A stretch of 52,157 nucleotides of DNA from Methylophilaceae bacterium (lineage in GTDB: Bacteria > Pseudomonadota > Gammaproteobacteria > Burkholderiales > Methylophilaceae): NCBI GenBank assembly GCA_028247015.1, contig JAOKFJ010000006.1:1-52157 (forward strand), read 5' to 3'. This document shows positions 7,521 to 19,338 of the stretch, in pieces. The notes under the pieces are model-generated. The model worked only from the letters and a program-made list of their open reading frames with translations. It had not been told where the DNA came from and made no database searches. How positions within the stretch are numbered: position 1 is the first letter of the stretch; each line of letters opens with the position of its first letter. The position numbers and the translations under genes are program-made.

Positions 7521-8480
7521 CTATATCCTAAAATTCTTAATTATGATTAAAGTCATCAGTAGGGCTAATAATATTTTTAAAAGTAATGGATTATAATTTT
7601 TTCCAGGTATATCTTTTTCAATTTTAATTGGTCTTTTCTCTTTCGAGTCGATATCTTTTATTGCCCCTGATAGAGCGTCTGGGTTCTCTGCCTCATAAGC
7701 TTTGTATTCAGTATTAAGAGATTTAAAGAATGAATCTAATTTAATGACCGTTGGCTCCCGTCCCTCTAAATAAGTATTACCAGAAAATAAACTCACATCA
7801 TTTGGCTCTTTTATAATTATCCAATAAAAATTAATTTTTTTCTCAGAAAAAATTGTGGCTATTTTATTTTTTACTCTTTTTGAAATTTTACCTGCACCAT
7901 CAGATAGTAATACCAATGCCTGAGAACCTGTAGTTTCAATTTCATTAAACATGAACAAGCCAGAACTAATACCTGAGCCAATATTTGTTTGATTTACTGA
8001 GGAGCGAGTAGCTGCATCAATCGCAGCGTAGGTATAGCTTCTATTTTTTGTTATTTTAGATCCGTATAAGGCTGAATTAGAAAACCCAACAATACCGATC
8101 ATATCCAATGGCCTCTTTTGAATAAAGTCCTTTAAAATTCTTCTTGTGGCAAGTGACTTTATCTCAGTTATATTTTCATTGTCGCCTCCAATAAAAGGTT
8201 TTGACATACTCACACTCCTGTCAATAACAAAAACTAGTTGAGCACCTTTACCCACCTGAGTAATAGTAGAAGATTTAGCCCATGGATTGGCAAGTATTAG
8301 GATTAAAATAACTATAATTAAAGACATGATGATTTTAGTTAGCACATTAATTTTTTTTGAAAAATTATCTTCATGAAATATATTAATATTACTAATTAGA
8401 AATTTATCAGAGACTGAGATTAGAAAAGGTAAGCAGGCGAGTGGAAGTAAAAGAAGCCAATATGGACTTATGAAGCTCAT
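7521..8480 (-). CDS. mxaC: MxaC-like von Willebrand factor A protein
   Basis: A 319-residue inner-membrane protein with two N-terminal helices (about 6-22 and 48-65), a VWA domain beginning with the metal-binding DRSVS (Asp87-Ser91) and a further LLSDGAG strand, and a C-terminal helix near 298-316. The topology matches BatA/MxaC proteins, with the VWA domain in the periplasm. It is thought to act with MxaA and MxaL in activating methanol dehydrogenase. Start and stop codons lie within 0-3 bases of the neighbouring genes, so the operon is tightly packed. Confidence 0.78.
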   Translation of the reverse strand: MSFISPYWLLLLPLACLPFLISVSDKFLISNINIFHEDNFSKKINVLTKIIMSLIIVILILILANPWAKSSTITQVGKGAQLVFVIDRSVSMSKPFIGGDNENITEIKSLATRRILKDFIQKRPLDMIGIVGFSNSALYGSKITKNRSYTYAAIDAATRSSVNQTNIGSGISSGLFMFNEIETTGSQALVLLSDGAGKISKRVKNKIATIFSEKKINFYWIIIKEPNDVSLFSGNTYLEGREPTVIKLDSFFKSLNTEYKAYEAENPDALSGAIKDIDSKEKRPIKIEKDIPGKNYNPLLLKILLALLMTLIIIKNFRI

Positions 8481-9344
8481 CTAAATTTTTCTTTCTATTG
8501 TTCTAAGAATTTTTGTAAAGCTATAAATTTCATTAAATCTTATTTTAGTAAAAAATGTTTTTGATGAATATATTTCAATGGAAGAAAGATTAATAAAAAT
8601 CTTAATTGCACCTTTGATTTCTTGGTACTTAATATTTTCGGAAATTATTTTCTCGTAATTCGAACTGTCTATATTCTGTTTGAATGATCTGTTAAATGCA
8701 TCAGTTAAAATTAAAATCGATTCAACATAGTTTTCTTTTACATTTTTTTTATGCAATTTTTTTATTTTTCTGTGTGCTTTTGCAAAGGGCCCATTCATTC
8801 TTTTTAATAGAGGGATGTCTATATTTTTATATAAAAGAATTAATATTGTTAATAAAATGACCCCACATAATATGTATAAATGTTTCATTTCAATATCGGT
8901 AACATCAGGTTTTTTTTGTTCGATAGAATTCAGTAAAATATCATTGAGCTTCGAATCAGCTACTCTTGTATACCAGTATAATTTTTTTGGCATTAAAACA
9001 TTATCATCATTTATTTTATATTTGTGGGTTGGAAGTGTGAAATTTCCACTTCCGGTTTTTTGAAAAGTTTGATAAATGATTTTATTTGTAAATATATACT
9101 TACCCGCTTTTTGTTCAATGTTATTTGATTGGCTAATAAATTTTAAATCTTTATTTTTTTTTATGATTAACTCGGGAGTCTGCATAAATTTTTTATTTAT
9201 AATTATTTTATCTTGAACAACTATAAGGTCACCTAGTTGAAAGCCATACTTAATATTTACAATTGAATTACTCTTTTCATAATTTGCTGCAGAAGCAATA
9301 AAAGCAATTAATATTAGGCTACAGAAAAGGAAGATTTTTTTCAT
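8481..9344 (-). CDS. mxaA: MxaA-like protein
   Basis: A 287-residue protein with an N-terminal signal helix (about 4-20), a periplasmic beta-rich segment to about 150, a membrane helix at about 155-172 and a basic cytoplasmic C-terminal part. Size and topology fit MxaA, which in Methylobacterium mutants is linked to calcium insertion into methanol dehydrogenase. The gene overlaps mxaS by 4 bases and abuts mxaC. Sequence similarity within this family is weak and I name it largely from its place between the DUF58 and VWA genes. Confidence 0.7.
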   Translation of the reverse strand: MKKIFLFCSLILIAFIASAANYEKSNSIVNIKYGFQLGDLIVVQDKIIINKKFMQTPELIIKKNKDLKFISQSNNIEQKAGKYIFTNKIIYQTFQKTGSGNFTLPTHKYKINDDNVLMPKKLYWYTRVADSKLNDILLNSIEQKKPDVTDIEMKHLYILCGVILLTILILLYKNIDIPLLKRMNGPFAKAHRKIKKLHKKNVKENYVESILILTDAFNRSFKQNIDSSNYEKIISENIKYQEIKGAIKIFINLSSIEIYSSKTFFTKIRFNEIYSFTKILRTIERKI

Positions 9345-10183
9345 ATATATGTACTCATGAAGTATTTTTGTATACTTTCAATATCAATATATTCATTTAT
9401 AACTATCTGCTTTAATTGTTTTTTTGAAAAAATTTGAAATATTTCTTCTTTTGTATTCTTATAATCTTCTAATATTTTTTCCTTAATACTTGGCCTTAGA
9501 AATACTTCATGCTCTAAATCTAATTCTGAGTCTATAAACTTTCTAAAGCCATACTTTGGCAGCTTTTTAATTTCACCTTCAGAAGAAATAAATAAAGGTA
9601 TTACGTGATGATTTGATAGATGATTTAGTATTTTTTCAATCTTATCAGATGGATAATGAAAATCAGATACCCAAAAGATGAGAGATTTTTCTTCGGGTAA
9701 GTATTTATTTATATCCTCCGCAGCATTACTGGATGACTTATCTGAATTAAATTCAATAGCATCTATCCATTGATTAATATATTCAAGGTTATCTCCAGGC
9801 TCCAGGATAAAATTATTACTGATCATATCGTTATAGCAAAGCATACTAAATCTATCCCCTTGCTCTATTGCCGAGGCAGAAATTATTTTTGATAAATCTT
9901 TAATAATCGTGTTATTTTTTTTATCTACAGACATTGAGCTAGAGATATCACATAAAGCAATTAAATTAATTGGGTTGTTTAAATTGTATGTTTTTACGTA
10001 TATATTTTCGTTGGGGTCAGTAATCGAATTTTTAATATCAATCCGAGTTAAATCAGGGTGATCATTAAAGTTTTTTGATCCACTATACTCAAAGTCATTA
10101 CCTATTTTAGAGCTTAGATTATTCCCGTATTTATTATTCCGTGAGCGCCAAGACACAGAGTAGGAAAATGGAGTTGTTTTCAA
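9341..10183 (-). CDS. mxaS: MxaS-like DUF58 protein
   Basis: A 280-residue soluble protein of the DUF58 type, which are VWA-like cytoplasmic partners of MoxR ATPases. The N-terminal SVSWRSR segment and the MIDAS-like DISSS (Asp79-Ser83) are visible, followed by SLIFWVSDF in the core. The MoxR-DUF58 pair is a widespread chaperone module; in methylotrophs it is MxaR-MxaS. The gene lies 7 bases after mxaR and overlaps mxaA, consistent with one transcript. Confidence 0.8.
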   Translation of the reverse strand: MKTTPFSYSVSWRSRNNKYGNNLSSKIGNDFEYSGSKNFNDHPDLTRIDIKNSITDPNENIYVKTYNLNNPINLIALCDISSSMSVDKKNNTIIKDLSKIISASAIEQGDRFSMLCYNDMISNNFILEPGDNLEYINQWIDAIEFNSDKSSSNAAEDINKYLPEEKSLIFWVSDFHYPSDKIEKILNHLSNHHVIPLFISSEGEIKKLPKYGFRKFIDSELDLEHEVFLRPSIKEKILEDYKNTKEEIFQIFSKKQLKQIVINEYIDIESIQKYFMSTYI

Positions 10184-10190
10184 TTTATTT

Positions 10191-11270
10191 CTATCCTAAT
10201 TCTGGTGTTGGTACTTTTAATAGAATCTCATTTGAAAATTCTCTGAGTAATTCTATTCTGTTATTCTCATATATTCGACTGAGGACTAACCTATGCGCCA
10301 TAACTTCATGAAAAATTTCATTTATATCGATAGGCTCAATATATGTTCTATTGTTTAACCATGCATTAACTTTGGCTGCTTTAATGAGCATAATCATTCC
10401 TCTTGGACTTGCTCCAGCAATAATGAAATCATCTATATCTACATCTTTAATGTTGATACCGAATTTCTTAGGGTTCTCAGTAGCTAGCCATAAATTCTCA
10501 ACATAGTTTTTTATATGATCGCTAGCTTGGATAGCATCTTGGATTGAGTCAGATACTTCATTTAACTCTTTGCAGTCAAATTTAGGGGATGGTATAGCCT
10601 CTACTAATTTTGCGGTATTTTGAAATTTACTTTCAAAGATTATTGAATCACGTAACTTCTTATCCTTGGGTGCTTGAATTGAGATTTCCATCATAAATCT
10701 ATCCCTAGCAGCCGCAGGCAGCTCAAATGTTTCATTCTTTTCCACTTGATTACGATCTGCAAAAACTACCATATGAGGTAAAAAAACATCCTTATTAAAA
10801 GCGCTAATTGATTTTTCTGCCATTGCCCTCAAAAGCAAGGAATGAACTTGTGGCCTTGCCCTGTTAATTTCATTAAAAAAGAAAATTGATAAATCTTCAC
10901 CTTTTTTAAGAATGGGACCATTTGATATGCTAGGTTTTCCTTGGCTATTTATAGAGGCATGATAAATAATATCATTTGGCATTAAATCAACTGTTCCTTC
11001 TACTCGCTCATATTCTCCGCCAATTAGTTTTGTGATAATTTGTAAAAGAGTTGTTTTTCCAACACCAACCCCTCCTTCTAGCAAGACATGCCCCCTTGCG
11101 AATAGACTAATTATGATAAGTTTTACTGCTTTTTCTTGGCCCAGAATAATATTATTAGCATCTGTTTGAATTTTTTTTGCATAACTTCGCCAATCTTCAA
11201 CTGCTGATAAAATTTTTTTTTCTGGTCCATAACTAGGAGTTAGTAATTTATTTGTTGAGTTAGTTTTCAT
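10191..11270 (-). CDS. mxaR: MoxR-family AAA+ ATPase, MxaR
   Basis: A 359-residue AAA+ ATPase of the MoxR type. Walker A is GGVGVGKT (66-73) and the Walker B/INRA motif is FFFNEINRARP (about 130-140), where the usual DE is NE (Asn133, Glu134). The sensor region PAAARDRFMMEI and the C-terminal ASPRGMIMLIKAAKVNAWL are typical. MoxR proteins remodel or activate partner proteins using ATP; in methylotrophs MxaR is needed for active methanol dehydrogenase. It is the first gene of the mxaRSACKL run, transcribed away from the rhodopsin cluster. A TATAAT sequence lies about 40 bases upstream of its ATG. Confidence 0.87.
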   Translation of the reverse strand: MKTNSTNKLLTPSYGPEKKILSAVEDWRSYAKKIQTDANNIILGQEKAVKLIIISLFARGHVLLEGGVGVGKTTLLQIITKLIGGEYERVEGTVDLMPNDIIYHASINSQGKPSISNGPILKKGEDLSIFFFNEINRARPQVHSLLLRAMAEKSISAFNKDVFLPHMVVFADRNQVEKNETFELPAAARDRFMMEISIQAPKDKKLRDSIIFESKFQNTAKLVEAIPSPKFDCKELNEVSDSIQDAIQASDHIKNYVENLWLATENPKKFGINIKDVDIDDFIIAGASPRGMIMLIKAAKVNAWLNNRTYIEPIDINEIFHEVMAHRLVLSRIYENNRIELLREFSNEILLKVPTPELG

Positions 11271-11309
11271 ATTTTTTTATTAAAACTTTTGTAAGAAATT
11301 TCAACAACT

Positions 11310-11315
11310 ATTATA
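11310..11315 (-). promoter_or_regulatory. Candidate -10 box for the mxa operon
   Basis: On the minus strand a perfect TATAAT lies about 40 bases upstream of the mxaR ATG, in the context TCCTATAATAG. No good TTGACA is found 16-18 bases further upstream, so support is partial. The rest of the 11271-11477 region between the two divergent operons is very AT-rich, with a 9-base direct repeat TATAATTTA at 11372 and 11386, and must also hold the proteorhodopsin promoter. Confidence 0.35.
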
Positions 11316-11477
11316 GGAGTATTTGAATAAAATAGAACTAAATTTTTTTTTAAAAACGCCTCTTAATATATTATAATTTATGATGTATAATTTATAATTA
11401 GTATGCGAACAGATATATCTTTACTTAACATTTTTTTTAATCACGTAATATTTTAATTTAAACAGGGGAGTTTTATT

Positions 11478-12164
11478 ATGTTAGATCCAAATGATTTTGT
11501 CGGGGTAAGTTTTTGGCTATTATCCGCGGCAATGGTAGCTGCAACGTTTTTTTTCTGGGTAGAAAGAGATAGAGCTGAAGGTAAATGGAAAACATCACTT
11601 ACAGTTGCTGCAATGGTTACAGGTATAGCAGCGATTCATTATTTCTACATGAGAGGAGTATGGATAGATACAGGTGCTTCACCTACGGTATTTAGATATG
11701 TAGATTGGCTATTAACAGTGCCACTACAAATTGTTGAGTTTTATTTAATATTAGCTGCTATTGCAGTTGTAGCGATATCAGTATTTTGGCGTTTACTAAT
11801 TGCATCAGTAGTTATGCTTGTAGCTGGTTACCTAGGCGAAGTTGGTACTGTAGGCCTGTGGTCTGGTTTCACAGTAGGTATGATAGCTTGGCTATACATC
11901 ATCTACGAAGTATTTGCAGGTGAAGCTAGTAAAATTAGTGCAAGTAAAGGTACTGCCGCAAGTAAAAAAGCATTTAATGCTTTAAGACTCATCGTTACTG
12001 TTGGTTGGTCTATATATCCAATAGGGTATTTCCTTGGTTACACTGGAAGTGCAGATGCAGGTACTTTAAATTTAGTCTATAACCTAGCTGACTTTGTTAA
12101 TAAGATAGCATTTGGTGTAGTTATATGGGCAGCAGCAACATCAGGTTCAAAAGCTACTAGATAA
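11478..12164 (+). CDS. Proteorhodopsin, light-driven proton pump (blue-type)
   Basis: A 228-residue seven-helix microbial rhodopsin. Key residues by comparison with proteorhodopsin: retinal-binding Lys209 in LADFVNK, Schiff-base counterion and proton acceptor Asp76, Thr80, proton donor Glu87 (the D/T/E pump motif in DWLLTVPLQIVE), second counterion Asp205, Arg73 and His54. The spectral-tuning position is Gln84, which in characterised proteorhodopsins gives blue absorption. Unlike many homologues it lacks an obvious N-terminal signal peptide. GGGGAG lies 8 bases before the ATG, a strong ribosome-binding site, and a strong terminator follows, so it may be expressed as its own abundant transcript. 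It lies 207 bases from the divergent mxaR. Retinal would come from the downstream genes. Confidence 0.97.
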   Translation: MLDPNDFVGVSFWLLSAAMVAATFFFWVERDRAEGKWKTSLTVAAMVTGIAAIHYFYMRGVWIDTGASPTVFRYVDWLLTVPLQIVEFYLILAAIAVVAISVFWRLLIASVVMLVAGYLGEVGTVGLWSGFTVGMIAWLYIIYEVFAGEASKISASKGTAASKKAFNALRLIVTVGWSIYPIGYFLGYTGSADAGTLNLVYNLADFVNKIAFGVVIWAAATSGSKATR

Positions 12165-12193
12165 AGTCTTTGGAACTCGAGTATTAGTTTTTT

Positions 12194-12226
12194 AAAAAAC
12201 GCGTCAGGAATGACGCGTTTTTTTTT
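12194..12226 (+). terminator. Rho-independent terminator between the two opsin genes
   Basis: A 13-base perfect stem built on ACGCGTCA/TGACGCGT with a GGAA tetraloop and a run of nine T on the plus strand. It ends 23 bases before the next ATG, leaving no room for a separate downstream promoter. It therefore probably attenuates transcription from the proteorhodopsin gene into the second opsin and carotenoid genes rather than ending the cluster. Confidence 0.92.
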
Positions 12227-12249
12227 AAAGTTAGAAATTAGGAGATAAG

Positions 12250-12987
12250 ATGGAAGTAGTAGATTTCAACTTAATATATAACTCATTGTCTTTTGCTATA
12301 GCAGCTTTTGGTGCAAGCACAGTTTTCTTTTTTGCACAGCGCTCCCAAGTAGCTCCTGCATATAAAACAGCTCTCACATTGTCTGGTTTAGTTTGCCTAA
12401 TTGCTTTTTATCATCACTTAAGAATGTTTGAAAGTTTCAATAATGCTTATACCTTAGTCTATGGTGAGATTATTGTATCGGGTATTCGTTTTGATGTTAC
12501 TTACCGATATCTCAGTTGGTTATTGACTGTTCCTTTACTATTACTTCAATTAGTACTTGTGATGCGCTTAAGCAAAGAGGAAACATATTCTAGGGGAATA
12601 AAGTTAGTATTTGCGGCAATATTGATGCTTCTATTAGGCTATCTTGGAGAAGGGTCGGTTACTTTTAGCCAGCTAGGTGATCGATGGGTCTATTGGTTAC
12701 TTGCGATGATTCCATTCTTATATATTCTTTATAATTTAGTAATAGCTTTAGCACCTTTAATTTTAAAGCAACCAAAAAGCGTTCAAAATTTGATAAGCAA
12801 TACAAGATGGCTACTTATTATTTCGTGGGCTTTTTACCCAATCATATATTTATTTCCAATGATTAACCAAGAAGCTTCTTACGTAGGAATCCAAGTAGGC
12901 TATACATTAGCTGATGTATTATCAATTGGTATTTTTGGTGTGATGATTTATATGATTGCCCAACGCAAATCAGATGCAGGGGCATAA
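12250..12987 (+). CDS. Rhodopsin-fold protein lacking the retinal-binding lysine
   Basis: A 245-residue seven-helix protein that aligns along its length with the upstream proteorhodopsin. Retained: His55, Arg86, Thr93, the YLGE turn of helix D/E, the helix-six Trp193 with Tyr-Pro, and Asp222 (second counterion). Changed: the Schiff-base Lys is Ile226 in LADVLSIGIFG, the proton acceptor Asp is Ser89, and the donor Glu is Gln100. No other lysine lies in helix seven. It therefore cannot form a retinylidene Schiff base at the usual site or pump protons conventionally. The frame is intact, with AGGAG 5 bases before the ATG, so it does not look like a decaying gene. It leads the crtE-blh operon. 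A role as a non-covalent retinal or carotenoid binder, or as a partner of the proton pump, is possible but unproven. Confidence 0.93.
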   Translation: MEVVDFNLIYNSLSFAIAAFGASTVFFFAQRSQVAPAYKTALTLSGLVCLIAFYHHLRMFESFNNAYTLVYGEIIVSGIRFDVTYRYLSWLLTVPLLLLQLVLVMRLSKEETYSRGIKLVFAAILMLLLGYLGEGSVTFSQLGDRWVYWLLAMIPFLYILYNLVIALAPLILKQPKSVQNLISNTRWLLIISWAFYPIIYLFPMINQEASYVGIQVGYTLADVLSIGIFGVMIYMIAQRKSDAGA

Positions 12988-13040
12988 TCAGATTGAAATT
13001 ATTGAATAAAAAAAGATGGCTTTGTAGAAGGTTTTTATAG

Positions 13041-14021
13041 TTGAATAAGATTATGAAAATTTTTTTAGGAAACGAATCTTTTACACCGCCTGAAGCAAAT
13101 AAATTTTTAGATGTAGTTAAAAATGAATTTGCCAAAAGCTTTGAAGTGGAAGACAAATTTTTATCTGCTTGGTTACATCATCATGGAGAATCTCAAGGTA
13201 AATGGCTGCGAGCAAGACTTGCATTAGCAGCAGGGGGGTTGTTAGGTTTATCCAGTCAAACATCTATAAATTGGGCGGTAGTATGTGAATTAATCCACAG
13301 TGCATCCTTACTTCACGATGATGTATGCGATCAGGATTCTCTTAGAAGAGGACAAAGTAGTGTTTGGAAAGCATACGGCATTTCTGCAGCTATTTGCACA
13401 GGCGATTATTTAATTGCTGAATCATTTAGGAAGATTACTGAAATTGAGGAAGGGTGGCACCAAACAATTTTATTGAAATTATTATCTTGTTCAGTTAAGG
13501 AGATAATTTTTGGACAATCTAAAGATGTTAGTTTCGATGTACTTGATATGTCATGGGATGAATATATGAAAATGGTAATAAATAAAACGTCTCCGTTTAT
13601 AGCACTACCAATGATGGGGATGTTCAAATGCAAAGAATGTTCAATTGATGAATGTAATGGGCTTCAAGAAGCATCAAATTATTTAGGTTTGTCCTATCAG
13701 TATCTAAATGACGTTGAGAATTTAGTAGGGATTAACCAAGATATTTTTTCTGATATATATAAAGGTCATCCAAATGGGATGCTAATTAATATTCTAGAAA
13801 AGTTAGATCTAGAGAATAAGTTAAAAATAAAAGAAGAGCCAAAACTACTAATTAACTATATTAATAAAAAATCTATTCGGGAGCAAAAAAGTAATATAAA
13901 TAATTTACTTGAAGATGCAAGAAATCAATTCCATAGAGTCCCTATGGTAGTTCAGCCTGTTTTGGTATCAATTGAAGATGAAATTAATGACAGACTAGAA
14001 AGTCTTATGGAAGAAGAATAG
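13041..14021 (+). CDS. crtE: Geranylgeranyl diphosphate synthase-like polyprenyl synthetase
   Basis: A 326-residue trans-isoprenyl diphosphate synthase. It has GKWLRARL (53-60) and the first Asp-rich motif DDVCD (93-97) with LRRG following, both used to bind the allylic diphosphate and magnesium. The second motif is degenerate: NDVEN (223-227) instead of DDxxD, without the usual downstream Gly-Lys. By context it supplies GGPP for phytoene synthesis. The TTG start at 13041 has GAAGG 9 bases upstream; the ATG at 13053 would shorten it by 4 residues. Its stop overlaps the crtI GTG by one base. A loss of activity, or replacement by another GGPP source, cannot be excluded given the altered motif. 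Confidence 0.85.
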   Translation: MNKIMKIFLGNESFTPPEANKFLDVVKNEFAKSFEVEDKFLSAWLHHHGESQGKWLRARLALAAGGLLGLSSQTSINWAVVCELIHSASLLHDDVCDQDSLRRGQSSVWKAYGISAAICTGDYLIAESFRKITEIEEGWHQTILLKLLSCSVKEIIFGQSKDVSFDVLDMSWDEYMKMVINKTSPFIALPMMGMFKCKECSIDECNGLQEASNYLGLSYQYLNDVENLVGINQDIFSDIYKGHPNGMLINILEKLDLENKLKIKEEPKLLINYINKKSIREQKSNINNLLEDARNQFHRVPMVVQPVLVSIEDEINDRLESLMEEE

Positions 14022-15487
14022 TGAAGACTGTAGCAATTATTGGTGGTGGTTTAGGTGGAATAGCGTCAGCAATTCGGTTTAAATCTAGAGGTTATGAGGT
14101 CTCCTTATATGAAAGGTTAGATGAGCTTGGTGGACGCGCTCAAAAATTTAGTAAAGATGGCTACCTTCACGATGCAGGACCAACAGTTATAACAGCACCT
14201 TACTTATTCAAAGAATTGTTTTCTCTTCTAAATGAAAATATAGATAATTATGTAACATTCAAACCATTAGATCCTTGGTATAGATTTTATTTTAATGATG
14301 GAACAGGATTTGATTACGGACCTGACAGAAGAAAAATGCTTGAACAGATTGATCAAATATCCCCGAAAGATGTTGATGGTTATTTGAGGATGCTTAAAAG
14401 AGCTGAGGAAATATTTGAGCTAGGTTACGAGAGACTTGCTAGTGAACCATTTAATAAGATTTTTAAAATGGTACGGTATGGGCCAGATATTATAAGGTTA
14501 GGAGGATACAAATCAGTTTACGGTTTTGTTTCTAAATACTTAGAGCACCCCAATTTAAGGCAAGCATTTTCAATTCAACCACTTTTAGTTGGAGGCAATC
14601 CTTTTACGACATCTTCAATATATGCCTTGATTCATGCATTAGAGCAAAAGTGGGGGATATCATTTGCAATGGGAGGAACTAATCACTTAGTTAAAGAGTT
14701 AAAGAATCTCATGGAAAGACATGGCGTAAATATTCATTATGAGCATGACGTTGATGAATTTATTACCAATAAAAATTCAGTAAAAAGTATTAAGTTTTTA
14801 AATGGAAAAGAAGTAACAGCCGATATTATTGTAAGTAATGCTGATCCAATTCAGGTAAATAGTGAATTTCTTAGAAATAGTAAAATATCATGGCATAACC
14901 AGATACTTAAAAAATATGCTAAACATTCAATGGGTCTATTTGTATTATTTTTTGGATCAAAAAAACAATATAAAAATGTTGCGCACCATACAATTTGGAT
15001 GGGACCCAGATATAAAGAACTACTAGAAGATATTTTTGACAGGCATCACTTGGCGGATGATTTCTCTATATATCTTCATAGACCGACAGCTACTGACTCT
15101 TCATTTGCTCCAGAAGGTCATGATTCATACTATGCGCTAGTCCCAGTTCCAAATTTAAAGGGAAATTATAATTGGAATGAAATTAAGGATAGCTTTTCTG
15201 AAAAGATATTAGGCTCATTGGATAAAACTATAATGCCAGGAATTTTGACAAATGCTGTTTGTAAATTTAGCATGACTCCAATAGATTTTAAAAATAATTA
15301 TAGAACACCCTATGGAAGTGGTTTCTCTATAGCACCAATTTTGACTCAATCTGCATGGTTTAGGACACACAACCAGGACGATAAATATAAAAATTTGTAT
15401 TATGTTGGTGCCGGGACTCATCCAGGAGCTGGGATACCTGGCGTATTAAATTCTGCAAAAGTAGTCGATAATATAATTCACCCATGA
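14021..15487 (+). CDS. crtI: Phytoene desaturase
   Basis: A 488-residue FAD-dependent desaturase converting phytoene to lycopene. The dinucleotide-binding GGGLGG (8-13) is followed by the family signature YERLDELGGRAQKF and DAGPTVI. The C-terminal GAGTHPGAGIPGVLNSAK is the conserved carotenoid-oxidoreductase motif. The length is normal for bacterial CrtI. The start is GTG, overlapping the crtE stop; the end overlaps crtB as ATGA. It acts at the membrane between CrtB and CrtY in making beta-carotene, the precursor of retinal. Confidence 0.96.
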   Translation: MKTVAIIGGGLGGIASAIRFKSRGYEVSLYERLDELGGRAQKFSKDGYLHDAGPTVITAPYLFKELFSLLNENIDNYVTFKPLDPWYRFYFNDGTGFDYGPDRRKMLEQIDQISPKDVDGYLRMLKRAEEIFELGYERLASEPFNKIFKMVRYGPDIIRLGGYKSVYGFVSKYLEHPNLRQAFSIQPLLVGGNPFTTSSIYALIHALEQKWGISFAMGGTNHLVKELKNLMERHGVNIHYEHDVDEFITNKNSVKSIKFLNGKEVTADIIVSNADPIQVNSEFLRNSKISWHNQILKKYAKHSMGLFVLFFGSKKQYKNVAHHTIWMGPRYKELLEDIFDRHHLADDFSIYLHRPTATDSSFAPEGHDSYYALVPVPNLKGNYNWNEIKDSFSEKILGSLDKTIMPGILTNAVCKFSMTPIDFKNNYRTPYGSGFSIAPILTQSAWFRTHNQDDKYKNLYYVGAGTHPGAGIPGVLNSAKVVDNIIHP

Positions 15488-16341
15488 AAAAGCAATCTCA
15501 TATTATCCAAAAATATGGCAAGACTTTTTACTGGGCGTCTTTTTTTCTTGAAAAAAAGATCAAATTAAGATTATTTTCAATATATGCCTTTTGCAGAAAA
15601 ATTGATGACATAGTAGACAACAATAAAAAAGAACTAAATATAGATCTTAAAAAAAATTTTTATAAAAAAATAGAAGGCTTTATAGGACTAGAAAAAAAAT
15701 TTAATCCATCAAAAGAAATAACTAAACAGTTTATATTAGGACAAAAAAGTGATTTGTCTCATAAACAACCAAGGTCAATTAATGAACTAACTATCTACTG
15801 CTATAGAGTTGCGGGTATTGTTGGATTAATGGTGTGTGATGCATTAGAAGTAAAGAATAGTAATATAAGGCGATATGCAATCGATTTAGGTATAGCAATG
15901 CAATTAACAAATATTTCCAGAGATATAAAAGAGGATTCAGCAATGGGAAGAGTATATTTGCCAAAGAATCTAGTCGGAAGGTTACTAGCTGATGAGGTAA
16001 ATAGCCCTAATAAAGCTACATATAATAAAATTAAAGCATGTCAAAACACGCTGTTAAAATTAGCTGACAAGTATTATGCTAGTGCAGATTTGGCAATCCC
16101 ATTTTTGCCAGGTAGAACATCACTAGCAATAAAAATAGCATCTAAGCTCTACCAAGCTATTGGTAAAAAGATTATCAATAAGGATGTTTCATATTTAAAA
16201 GGTAGGGTATTTGTTACTAAATATGAAAAATTAAGAATAACCTTAGCCAATATTTTTTCAATAACAAATAATCATACTGCGCTAAAAGCCCATAATAAGA
16301 AATTACATACTTCTATTACGAATTTACCAGGAGCACATTAA
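15484..16341 (+). CDS. crtB: Phytoene synthase
   Basis: A 285-residue squalene/phytoene synthase joining two GGPP molecules head to head. Both Asp-rich motifs are intact: DDIVD (41-45) and RDIKED (Asp147, Glu150, Asp151), the latter in the typical context NISRDIKED followed by GRVYLP. It overlaps crtI by 4 bases and is followed after one base by crtY, so translation is coupled. Very Lys/Asn-rich, like the other genes here, which reflects the low GC content. Confidence 0.95.
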   Translation: MKKQSHIIQKYGKTFYWASFFLEKKIKLRLFSIYAFCRKIDDIVDNNKKELNIDLKKNFYKKIEGFIGLEKKFNPSKEITKQFILGQKSDLSHKQPRSINELTIYCYRVAGIVGLMVCDALEVKNSNIRRYAIDLGIAMQLTNISRDIKEDSAMGRVYLPKNLVGRLLADEVNSPNKATYNKIKACQNTLLKLADKYYASADLAIPFLPGRTSLAIKIASKLYQAIGKKIINKDVSYLKGRVFVTKYEKLRITLANIFSITNNHTALKAHNKKLHTSITNLPGAH

Positions 16342-16342
16342 A

Positions 16343-17479
16343 TTGAATAAAAGTTTTGATATTGTAGTTATAGGCGCAGGACTTTCAAGCTTAATGTTCT
16401 TATCAAGATATATTATTAAAAACAAAAATCAGTCTATTTTATTGATTGAAAAAAGAATTAAAAAAAATATTAATCAGACTTTTTGTATTTGGCAGGGCCC
16501 TGATCTAATTGATATAAAAAAAATATACAATTTAAAAGCAAGACATGCCTGGAATAAGATTCGTGTCTCATATGCTGATGAAATTGTTGATAAAGATATT
16601 AGTCCATACTCCTATGAATGTTTTGATGGCAAAGAGACGCTTAAAAATCTCTTAAATCAATGCAAAGATAAAATTACATTTAAGCAAGGGTTAGATGTAA
16701 AAAAAATTAAGAATAATAAGGGTTCAATTGAGATTATTACTAATAAGGGCTCTATATATACTAAATATGTAATTGATAGCCGAAATAAAATTTCAAATAA
16801 ACAGTATAAATCTGCACCTAGTATTCGTCAGGCCTTTATTGGCAATGAAATAATAACTGAAGAAGAAAAATTTAATTCTGACGTGCTTACATTGATGGAG
16901 TTCTCTAATAATACAAAAGATATCGAGTTTACATATACCCTCCCTTTTTCAAATAAAAATGCATTAGTAGAGACTACATTATTTACCAAGAACCCATCTT
17001 TTACTCATATTCAAAAATTACATAATCAGCTACTTTTAAAATATAAGAAATTCCGATCTATAAAAAAAGAATCGGGAGTTTTACCAATGATTTTATCAAG
17101 AGAATCTATAGATAATAATAATATACCAATTGGCTTGTCTGCAGGTATGGCTAGACCATCAACGGGTTACTCAATGATGAGAATTGCCCAATGGGTCAAA
17201 TCTATAGAAAATAATAAAATTGAGAGTAATAATATTAAACGGTTTGAATTCAAACCAAATAAACTATTAGAATGGTTTGATAGTATTTTTCTTACAGTAT
17301 GTTATTTTTGGCCTCACAAAGCGCCTATATTATTTATGAGATTGTTTAGTAATGCTGACATTAAATCTATTATTAGATTTATGTCTGATGTTCCAACATC
17401 AAGAGATATTATTTCTATAATCTTAGGTATGCCAAAAATATTAATGATTCATGGCCTTATTAAAAAATATGTTAAATAA
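16343..17479 (+). CDS. crtY: Lycopene beta-cyclase
   Basis: A 378-residue FAD-dependent CrtY-type cyclase that closes both ends of lycopene to give beta-carotene. It has an N-terminal dinucleotide fold GAGLSS (11-16), a TFCIWQGPD segment and the conserved PSTGYSMMRIAQWV region. The start is TTG, with AGGAG 9 bases upstream. The end overlaps blh. No hydroxylase or ketolase gene accompanies it, so beta-carotene should be the end carotenoid, to be cleaved to retinal. Confidence 0.93.
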   Translation: MNKSFDIVVIGAGLSSLMFLSRYIIKNKNQSILLIEKRIKKNINQTFCIWQGPDLIDIKKIYNLKARHAWNKIRVSYADEIVDKDISPYSYECFDGKETLKNLLNQCKDKITFKQGLDVKKIKNNKGSIEIITNKGSIYTKYVIDSRNKISNKQYKSAPSIRQAFIGNEIITEEEKFNSDVLTLMEFSNNTKDIEFTYTLPFSNKNALVETTLFTKNPSFTHIQKLHNQLLLKYKKFRSIKKESGVLPMILSRESIDNNNIPIGLSAGMARPSTGYSMMRIAQWVKSIENNKIESNNIKRFEFKPNKLLEWFDSIFLTVCYFWPHKAPILFMRLFSNADIKSIIRFMSDVPTSRDIISIILGMPKILMIHGLIKKYVK

Positions 17480-18353
17480 AGTAATTATTCATCAACAGAT
17501 ATTTATTGTATTTTCGTTATTAATATTAATCCTTAATATTTTCTTAAATTTTATCAATAGTTATCTTAATTATTTAATTTGGGTAGCTCTTTTTTTTGTC
17601 AGTACACTTGGGATTAGTCATGGTGCATTAGATGGAAAATTAATATGGGGAGGAATAAATAAAAATTTCCAAAGAATTATTCTATTTAGTCTATATTTAT
17701 CTCTAGTAATATTAGGTTGGTTTTTATGGGTGAGCTATCCCGCAATTGGATTATTGATTTTACTTATCATGTCAATTTTTCATTTTGGAAATTCTGATTT
17801 AAAATTTCTTAAATTATCTGACATAAATATTAGGCTGTCATGGGGTTTTAGTATGACCTTCTTACCAATTTTATTTAAAAGAGATATTGTTGATTCAATT
17901 TTTTATAATTTAATCGGATTCAATATACCTGATTTCTTAATTGTTATTATTTATTGCATTTTGATTCTCAGCATTATTAGGCTGTATTGGAAATTTATAA
18001 GTAATATTGTTAATTCAATATCGATGGTGGTTTGGTTTAAAAATAAAGATGTTTTGTTGGTGCTTGAACTTACCTCTCTAGTTGTTCTCTCTTACTTTAC
18101 TCATCCATTTGTTTGGTTTGCAATCTATTTCTGTGGGTTACATGGAGTTCGTTCTTTAATTGATTCTAATTTTAATTGGAACGTCGATCTTAAATGGCTT
18201 ATTGTATTTACTCTTCCAGTATTAGTATTTATTGGATTTACATATGGTAGATATTGGAATGTAGATGCTTATTCTTTAATATTTCCTATTTTAGGATCCT
18301 TAACTATTGCACATATGTTCTTACCTTCATTATTAAAATTTATAAGAAGATAG
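17451..18353 (+). CDS. blh: Beta-carotene 15,15'-dioxygenase, Brp/Blh family
   Basis: A 300-residue polytopic membrane protein with seven or eight hydrophobic helices. It has the His residues characteristic of Blh: His57 (ISHGALDG), His111 (FHFGNSD), His218, His231 (GLHGVRS) and His288 (AHMF), which bind the iron that cleaves beta-carotene into two retinals. It closes the operon and completes the retinal pathway. The longest frame starts at 17451, overlapping crtY by 29 bases; the ATG at 17469 would cut the overlap to 11 bases and the protein to 294 residues. Neither start has a clear ribosome-binding site. It is convergent with the next gene, with one base between stops and no visible terminator. 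Confidence 0.95.
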   Translation: MALLKNMLNKVIIHQQIFIVFSLLILILNIFLNFINSYLNYLIWVALFFVSTLGISHGALDGKLIWGGINKNFQRIILFSLYLSLVILGWFLWVSYPAIGLLILLIMSIFHFGNSDLKFLKLSDINIRLSWGFSMTFLPILFKRDIVDSIFYNLIGFNIPDFLIVIIYCILILSIIRLYWKFISNIVNSISMVVWFKNKDVLLVLELTSLVVLSYFTHPFVWFAIYFCGLHGVRSLIDSNFNWNVDLKWLIVFTLPVLVFIGFTYGRYWNVDAYSLIFPILGSLTIAHMFLPSLLKFIRR

Positions 18354-18354
18354 A

Positions 18355-19338
18355 TTAATTTATTATTTTATTAATTTCTTGTGCCATCATGAATCCTGCT
18401 TCAAAAGCACTTTCAATTCTACCTTGTGTAATCCAGTCCCCACAAGCGGCAAGCTTATTATCATAGTCAATTAATAAGTCTGATTGGGTCTGTTTGCTTA
18501 TATTCGCATAGTGCCAGGCTTTGAGGCAGACATGGTCTGCATTACCAGTATCATGGCCTATGATTCTTGTTGTCTCCTTGTGTAGATACGAGATAACACT
18601 TTGTGAATCATCAGATAAATGATTTTCTGCCCATGCATTTGTTGAATTAATTAACATAGAAAATGAGTTTCCTCTGTCTGGTTTTGAGCTGTTAATTGAG
18701 ATCCAGCTTATATCTGCATTTCTTATAAGAGCTGCATCCCATAATAATGGAATAGGCTTCTTAAATCCAAGCATCAATGAAAAACAACCTACCATTTTTC
18801 TATCAAGTAGATCTTTATGATACTTAAAATTGACTGGGAGAATTTCTGCAGATTGTATTGCAGGAGCAGTAGATATAACCCAATCAAATTTACCTAAATT
18901 ATTTGAATCATCATCAAATAACTCCCAATTATTAGCATTGTGAACTACTTTATTTATTTTAGTATTTAATTTTATATTAAGCTCCGTAGACAAATATTCA
19001 GCAATCGAATTCATCCCAGGAGTACCAACATAATGAGGATATTCTGCATTCCAAGAGATAGTCCTTAATATTTTATTGTCTATGAATTCAGCAAAGCGGG
19101 CATCCCAGCGTTTGATTATATTTTCTTTGATTAATGGCTTGATGAAATTCTTAAAAATTTTACCTTTAGCGGTGAAAAATTGAGCACCATGATCAAACTC
19201 ATATGGAGTAGAGCGACGAAAAGCCATTCTTCCACCTACACTCTTACTTTTTTCAAAAATTGATACGGTAGCGTTTTTTTTTAAATTTTGAGCAATGGTT
19301 ATGGATGAAATTCCTGCTCCGATAATAGCAATTCTCAT
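18355..19338 (-). CDS. FAD-dependent amine-oxidase-like oxidoreductase
   Basis: A 327-residue flavoprotein. N-terminal dinucleotide fold GAGISS (7-12), acidic FEKSKSVGGRM segment and FDHGAQFFTAKG place it in the small NAD(P)/FAD-dependent oxidoreductase family related to renalase. The C-terminal CGDWITQGRIESAFEAGF is the typical FAD-contacting end. These proteins are common in marine and freshwater phototrophs, but their substrate is mostly unknown. It is convergent with blh, so the link to retinal is only positional. It follows a 25-residue membrane-peptide gene on the same strand by 3 bases. Confidence 0.85.
   Translation of the reverse strand: MRIAIIGAGISSITIAQNLKKNATVSIFEKSKSVGGRMAFRRSTPYEFDHGAQFFTAKGKIFKNFIKPLIKENIIKRWDARFAEFIDNKILRTISWNAEYPHYVGTPGMNSIAEYLSTELNIKLNTKINKVVHNANNWELFDDDSNNLGKFDWVISTAPAIQSAEILPVNFKYHKDLLDRKMVGCFSLMLGFKKPIPLLWDAALIRNADISWISINSSKPDRGNSFSMLINSTNAWAENHLSDDSQSVISYLHKETTRIIGHDTGNADHVCLKAWHYANISKQTQSDLLIDYDNKLAACGDWITQGRIESAFEAGFMMAQEINKIIN

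Follow-up and report, generated by a model that had tools for sequence, protein, structure and literature searches.

Xanthorhodopsin-related proteins devoid of the retinal-binding lysine, named Rh-noK, were previously reported in marine betaproteobacteria, where their genes are in tandem with a proteorhodopsin (PR) gene (Yamauchi 2019, PMID 31066906, as cited in PMC10308929) and share a putative operon with it and with genes for retinal synthesis (PMC7714340). According to the second-hand account given in PMC10308929, an Rh-noK whose lysine has been restored binds retinal and pumps, and the idea that Rh-noK forms hetero-oligomers with PR is attributed there to Yamauchi 2019. The present analysis concerns a gene found in a stretch of 52,157 nucleotides (the window) from an OM43-type Methylophilaceae genome, 62% complete, whose nearest named relatives include Methylophilaceae AH-578-O07, beta proteobacterium KB13 and Methylophilales HTCC2181. 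The encoded protein is also xanthorhodopsin-related, lacks the lysine and is encoded in tandem with PR and retinal genes (Table 1); judging from the published descriptions, on which the comparison is based, the gene probably belongs to the same clade as those of Yamauchi 2019. The original prediction had supposed that this class of proteins might not be entirely new, which is borne out, but had taken its place beside a canonical pump as a peculiarity; both the lysine-less class and the tandem arrangement with PR are already described as Rh-noK (PMC10308929, PMC7714340). The history of the orthologs, the hairpin slot, an estimate of selection and the exchange of the single gene are not mentioned in the accounts of Rh-noK given by these citing papers, although the original article may contain them.

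Lysine-bearing xanthorhodopsin-like rhodopsins (XLRs) of OM43 (KB13, HTCC2181 and LSUCC strains) and of Ca. Methylopumilus are described as heading a crtE-I-B-Y-blh run (PMC6794327) and are orthologous to the gene of the window. Unlike it, they have the equivalents of D85 and K216 and, in OM43, they are the only rhodopsin found and lie before the hairpin. Salcher et al. 2019 (PMC6794327) state that marine OM43 carry only a xantho-like rhodopsin; this statement is corrected here, since PR is present in 13 of the 26 rhodopsin-bearing genomes of the OM43 genus. Flotillin-associated rhodopsins, as described in PMC10308929, are alike in that streamlined bacteria of aquatic habitats carry them as paralogs of a bona fide PR, and most of those from freshwater lack the lysine, but they form a clade of the proteorhodopsin family located beside a flotillin gene and outside the crt run; no flotillin match was found among the nine window proteins scanned (10191 to 19338). 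Haloarchaeal and fungal opsin-related proteins share the type 1 opsin fold and carry Arg, Leu or another residue in place of the lysine. However, according to Becker et al. 2016 (PMC4915679), those of haloarchaea are often encoded beside chemotaxis transducers, and they are neither xanthorhodopsin-like nor adjacent to PR or crt genes.

Table 1. Features of the rhodopsin-crt locus of the window.
Feature	Coordinates	Strand	Evidence or remark
Canonical proteorhodopsin (PR)	11478..12164	+	Pfam E 4.6e-47; acceptor D76, donor E87, Schiff-base K209 by alignment
Hairpin and T-run, terminator-like, between PR and lysine-less gene	12197..12226	+	10-bp stem, -14.0 kcal/mol; hairpin-T site on both strands
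Ribosome-binding site AGGAGA	12240..12245	+	Direct reading of the sequence
Lysine-less xanthorhodopsin-like protein (Rh-noK type)	12250..12987	+	Intact ORF, 245 aa, ATG start
Stretch apparently exchanged from a G017-like lineage	12250..12933	+	Left edge near hairpin, right edge near 12933
crtE-type polyprenyl (GGPP) synthase	13041..14021	+	PF00348 E 6.1e-39
crtI-type phytoene desaturase	14021..15487	+	PF01593 E 1e-29; name from position and family
crtB phytoene synthase	15484..16341	+	PF00494 E 6.6e-49
crtY lycopene cyclase	16343..17479	+	PF05834 E 9.8e-35
blh beta-carotene 15,15'-dioxygenase	17451..18353	+	PF15461 E 7e-23

As originally predicted, an intact rhodopsin-fold frame with its own ribosome-binding site lies beside PR at the head of the retinal operon, and its product matches Bac_rhodopsin (PF01036) over residues 14-236 (E 1.2e-30, 107.1 bits for a cut-off of 24.6). 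The AlphaFold2 model (mean pLDDT 79.0, pTM 0.78, residues 1-12 below 50) has the seven-helix fold, with 3ddl as first PDB match (TM 0.85) and xanthorhodopsin-type pumps as the top 11 matches (TM by query length 0.84-0.88); the best PDB sequences are psXR, Kin4B8, Gloeobacter rhodopsin and xanthorhodopsin. We consider it virtually certain that the protein is a member of the xanthorhodopsin-like family and the OM43 ortholog of the lysine-bearing pump. On the minus strand of the window (7521-11270), a MoxR-type AAA ATPase gene and genes of vWA/BatA-type appearance diverge from the rhodopsin run; G020 has this set next to its run too, whereas most of the other relatives inspected do not.

Alignment of the lysine-less protein with the PR of the window agrees with the residue pairs initially proposed: H55/H54, R86/R73, W193/W177 and D222/D205 are kept, whereas S89/D76, Q100/E87 and I226/K209 differ. 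The protein thus has Ile226 in place of the helix G lysine that characterizes Schiff-base rhodopsins, and Ser89 (acceptor) and Gln100 (donor) in place of the helix C carboxylates of outward proton pumps. It had also been claimed that helix seven has no other lysine; none is within reach, and a relocated retinal lysine is ruled out: the six lysines of the protein (39, 109, 118, 173, 176 and 240) are all at positions that are lysine in the lysine-bearing orthologs too (K or R at 109), and the only one in or near helix seven, K240, is at the far end of the predicted helix G (211-244). A carotenoid antenna is ruled out as well, by Trp149 and not Gly at the helix E position that we take to be the fenestration site of carotenoid-antenna xanthorhodopsin; a Trp is also present at this site in the lysine-bearing OM43 orthologs.

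The family-wide search covered 187 genomes and yielded rhodopsin-family matches in 54 of them. The genus of the window accounts for 26 of these 54, out of its 31 genomes; G006, G011, G018, G024 and G025 have no match. Loci were compared in these 26 genomes (the window being G000) and in 13 Methylopumilus-type genomes with matches; gene order and the description given in PMC6794327 indicate that this second genus (g15) is probably Ca. Methylopumilus. The lysine-less gene is present in 13 of the 26 genomes; its absence from close relatives, which would have spoken against the original prediction, is therefore not observed. The anticipated co-occurrence with a lysine-bearing opsin is regular inside the genus: all 13 genomes carry PR, directly upstream in 12, the two genes being at the ends of two contigs in G010. 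The other 13 genomes carry a lysine-bearing ortholog in the same slot before crtE, as the single rhodopsin match of each; PR was not found in them, which does not prove its absence from each genome because four are less than 90% complete and the contig of G004 starts inside the gene. Since the lysine-bearing ortholog occupies the same slot, the lysine-less gene owes its position in front of the crt genes to descent from a pump gene, and this position is not unusual, contrary to what had been thought. All 13 Methylopumilus-type loci have an XLR that retains the lysine, with a different PR in front, and in relatives such as G041 PR directly precedes crtE without any second rhodopsin there.

A scan of viral contigs yielded no relative. 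Outside Methylophilaceae, no adjacent rhodopsin pair was found in even samples of the order (matches in 13 of 399 genomes) and of the class (21 of 369); adjacency was what was scored in these samples, and other cases may exist. Some loci showed particularities of their own. In L049 (G046; position 2547, minus strand), a second, divergent rhodopsin with Lys at the Schiff-base and donor sites lies beside PR, and the genome search reports a TGA inside this match. Two genes of Methylopumilus-type loci, the XLR of L081 (G086) and the PR of L082 (G087), are in pieces, owing either to assembly error or to decay. In L061 (G027), crtI, crtY and blh are in pieces and marker genes contain stops, which looks like assembly frameshifts, while the lysine-less gene of this genome is whole.

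In the rhodopsin protein tree (42 rows, without G004 and G086), the 13 lysine-less genes form one side of a single branch (supports 100/98; 200 of 200 bootstrap trees) that adjoins the lysine-bearing OM43 genes, which shows, at the level of the gene tree, a single origin. The 13 OM43 copies of PR likewise group in a single clade (100/100), which is distant from the PRs found in Methylopumilus and other relatives (tree without G087 and one short G046 gene). The organism tree based on four genes (rpoB, alaS, groEL and argS; 29 rows, without G006, G011 and G018), obtained by a quick method with SH-aLRT supports only, places four lysine-bearing genomes, including G002, inside the lysine-less ones with supports of 96 to 98. 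A tree constrained to unite the lysine-less genomes is worse by 33.8 log units (AU p 0.018), and rpoB alone gives a similarly mixed placement; G027 is a long frameshifted row in this tree, and the markers may themselves have recombined. These trees suggest a swap of the whole locus, in which PR and the lysine-less gene replaced the lysine-bearing gene or the reverse. Because of this apparent swap, the distribution into 13 and 13 genomes does not amount to 26 independent events.

Besides these apparent swaps of the whole locus, the window bears the mark of an exchange restricted to one gene. Informative sites shared with G017 or with G020 number 10 and 75, respectively, in PR, 146 and 25 in the lysine-less gene, and 27 and 279 in crtE (test without the frameshifted G027). 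DNA identity with G020 is 94% for PR, 92% for crtE, 98% for crtI, 97% for crtB and 95% for crtY but 75% for the lysine-less gene; with G017 it is 92% for the lysine-less gene but 85, 65, 70, 58 and 59% for the same five genes. By these site patterns, the window copy of the lysine-less gene arrived by gene-sized exchange between OM43 lineages, and its Ser89 and Gln100 came in with the G017-like allele. When six genes were screened pairwise across 12 genomes, the deviations were strongest for the lysine-less gene (+27 and -19 points). It is nevertheless no unique hot spot of exchange, since values of 23 and 20 points are seen for PR and crtB.

The gene is under constraint. With the codon model GY+F3X4 (all sets without G004, G086 and G087, crt sets also without genes below 150 aa), omega is 0.076 for the lysine-less genes (n = 13), and the log-likelihood of -4659.86 falls to -5239.59 when omega is set to 1 (best of six kappa values), i.e. 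about 580 log units worse. Omega 1 being rejected, the protein is under purifying selection, as the original prediction had held, and decay into a pseudogene is ruled out, all 13 copies having open frames (that of G010 reaches the contig end). The lysine-bearing OM43 genes have about half this value (0.034, n = 12); omega is 0.067 for the Methylopumilus XLR (n = 11), 0.048 for the OM43 PR (n = 13) and 0.032 to 0.139 across the crt and blh genes (crtE 0.066, blh 0.139). By these estimates, the lysine-less protein is constrained about like crtE in the same genomes and less than the lysine-bearing pump.

For the retinal pocket, we use the list and numbering of 21 contact positions of bacteriorhodopsin. 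Among the 13 lysine-less proteins, 19 of these positions are invariant, the exceptions being the acceptor site (Gly in 11, Ser in 2) and the Lys site (Ile in 12, Leu in 1). The chemistry initially described as lost is thus lost as far as Lys and the acceptor are concerned; however, the Ser and Gln of the window do not define the class, S89 being shared by the window with G017 alone and Q100 with G017 and G028 alone, while the donor site is Glu in the other 10 proteins. The majority residue of the lysine-bearing OM43 group is kept at 17 of the 21 positions, and the four changes concern the acceptor, the Lys, an Ala to Ser beside the Lys site and a Phe to Tyr at the place of W189, a Tyr that also occurs in lysine-bearing relatives. 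Entropy is 0.048 bits in the pocket compared to 0.575 elsewhere. Against equally conserved sites, Fisher tests give p = 0.09 with the lysine-bearing OM43 reference (0.019 without D85 and K216) and p = 0.56 and 1.0 with wider references (0.11 and 0.44 without these two sites). As these strict comparisons show no better retention of the pocket, ordinary constraint on the fold could explain it, and we take pocket-specific selection as suggestive of retinal binding and not as proof, the strict reference sets being non-significant.

The lysine-less gene also differs from its ortholog in its position relative to a putative terminator. A hairpin with a CGCG stem followed by a T-run is found 3′ of PR in all 13 lysine-less genomes and 3′ of the lysine-bearing pump gene in the 13 others, but never 3′ of the lysine-less gene (0 of 13; a weaker hairpin of another kind is present there in G017 and G019). 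The pattern occurs at one place per genome, the rhodopsin locus, in the five genus genomes searched (5 of 5). This hairpin marks the boundary between the pump gene and the retinal genes and could be an attenuator setting the pump to enzyme ratio. The consensus terminator scan missed the 12197 hairpin, probably because A-T pairs use up its T tail, and listed another site inside PR. In Methylopumilus, a different terminator follows PR and precedes the XLR in 12 to 13 of 13 loci (two scans); since the XLR located there keeps its lysine, a slot behind the PR terminator does not alone explain the loss of Lys.

Promoter-like matches of the consensus scan (n = 7) are fewer than the shuffle mean (9.0) and hence carry little information; those on the plus strand are all at 11349-11454. 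With no more than 23 bases between the T-run and the start codon in the window, a separate promoter of the lysine-less gene would need to sit in the hairpin or in PR. For the OM43 isolate NB0046, published counts in three of four conditions amount to 16.2 to 36.8 transcripts per cell for the rhodopsin and to 0.52 to 0.67 for GGPP synthase, the gene that follows it (PMC5120137). The ratio that we computed from these counts is 31 to 58-fold, and about 10-fold under nutrient depletion; it comes from an isolate for which one rhodopsin is listed and which is not a lysine-less strain. If the hairpin causes this drop, the lysine-less protein would be made at the level of the retinal enzymes and not at that of the pump. 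The CAI of the lysine-less gene is 0.591, compared to 0.644 and 0.646 for the pump genes, but codon adaptation was set aside as a weak proxy of expression since crtB and crtY also reach 0.62-0.65.

We tentatively favour, with somewhat less than even confidence, the reading in which the lysine-less protein, in substoichiometric amounts, assists PR by handling retinal that it binds non-covalently. In OM43 lineages with PR in the pump slot, the older rhodopsin sits behind the pump terminator; it has lost both its Schiff-base Lys and its acceptor Asp and has since stayed under purifying selection. In this reading, it would no longer pump but would still fold and keep its retinal pocket, in which it may hold retinal or one of its precursors non-covalently. 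Produced in amounts similar to those of the enzymes that make retinal, and much lower than those of the pump, it might take retinal from the blh step to newly made PR, docking on it perhaps through helices A-C. The expression slot and the kept pocket modestly favour a role as retinal carrier, and the second-hand report that lysine-restored Rh-noK binds retinal and pumps fits a pocket that still works (PMC10308929). That the protein is a dedicated shuttle, i.e. that Lys and acceptor were lost so that retinal could be bound and released, and that the gene moved behind the terminator and its product loads retinal onto PR, is rather doubtful. PR in general needs no such partner, since relatives such as G041 have PR without a second rhodopsin.

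The main rival explanation, in which PR oligomers take up the lysine-less protein as a subunit that regulates their pumping or stability, is possible although on the unlikely side. It would account for the adjacent genes, for the constant company of PR and for the near freezing of helices A-C, which form the protomer contacts in rhodopsin oligomers: the majority residue differs between lysine-bearing and lysine-less forms at 4 of 75 positions in A-C and at 39 of 114 in D-G (p = 1.1e-6), and scarce synonymous change is not the reason since fourfold sites differ by 0.62 in A-C and 0.54 in D-G. However, lysine-bearing OM43 and Methylopumilus XLRs exhibit the same bias between themselves (0.17 in A-C compared to 0.45 in D-G), which is therefore not special to the lysine-less form and was dropped as proof of hetero-oligomers. 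Furthermore, the terminator predicts far less lysine-less protein than PR, and the gene of the window, exchanged alone, is now paired with a PR gene whose DNA identity to the partner of the nearest allele is only 85%.

A passive relic, kept through its place between the PR terminator and crtE because its ORF is needed for the translation or transcription of the run, is quite improbable: the gene does hold the place of its pump ortholog, and its omega and its CAI (a weak guide) have drifted from the pump values, but the constraint bears on the amino acids and is tighter than that on blh. We give a similarly low chance to a non-light membrane role apart from retinal (proton path, lipid, assembly or a surface site under exchange), with which the exchange of the gene alone and the highly variable extracellular B-C loop (2 of 17 positions invariant) would agree but not the near-invariant pocket and the position in the retinal run. 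By analogy with haloarchaea, for whose lysine-less opsins, mostly encoded beside transducers, Becker 2016 proposes a sensory role (PMC4915679), the protein could also sense free retinal or a signal other than light; this is very unlikely, as the run includes no transducer gene and its annotated downstream neighbours all encode crt or blh enzymes.

A literature search, with most subscription papers outside its scope, found nothing on a retinal carrier for PR. To our knowledge, how hydrophobic retinal is handed over from the enzyme that makes it to bacterial opsins is not settled, and we know of no retinal-handling role for the microbial rhodopsin fold, of which the lysine-less protein would be the first example if our preferred reading is true. 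OM43 provides a natural experiment, in which close genomes carry either one lysine-bearing pump or PR with a lysine-less relative of that pump. If the retinal-handling reading holds, the handler would be a former pump that acquired an accessory role once its slot had gone to a new pump.
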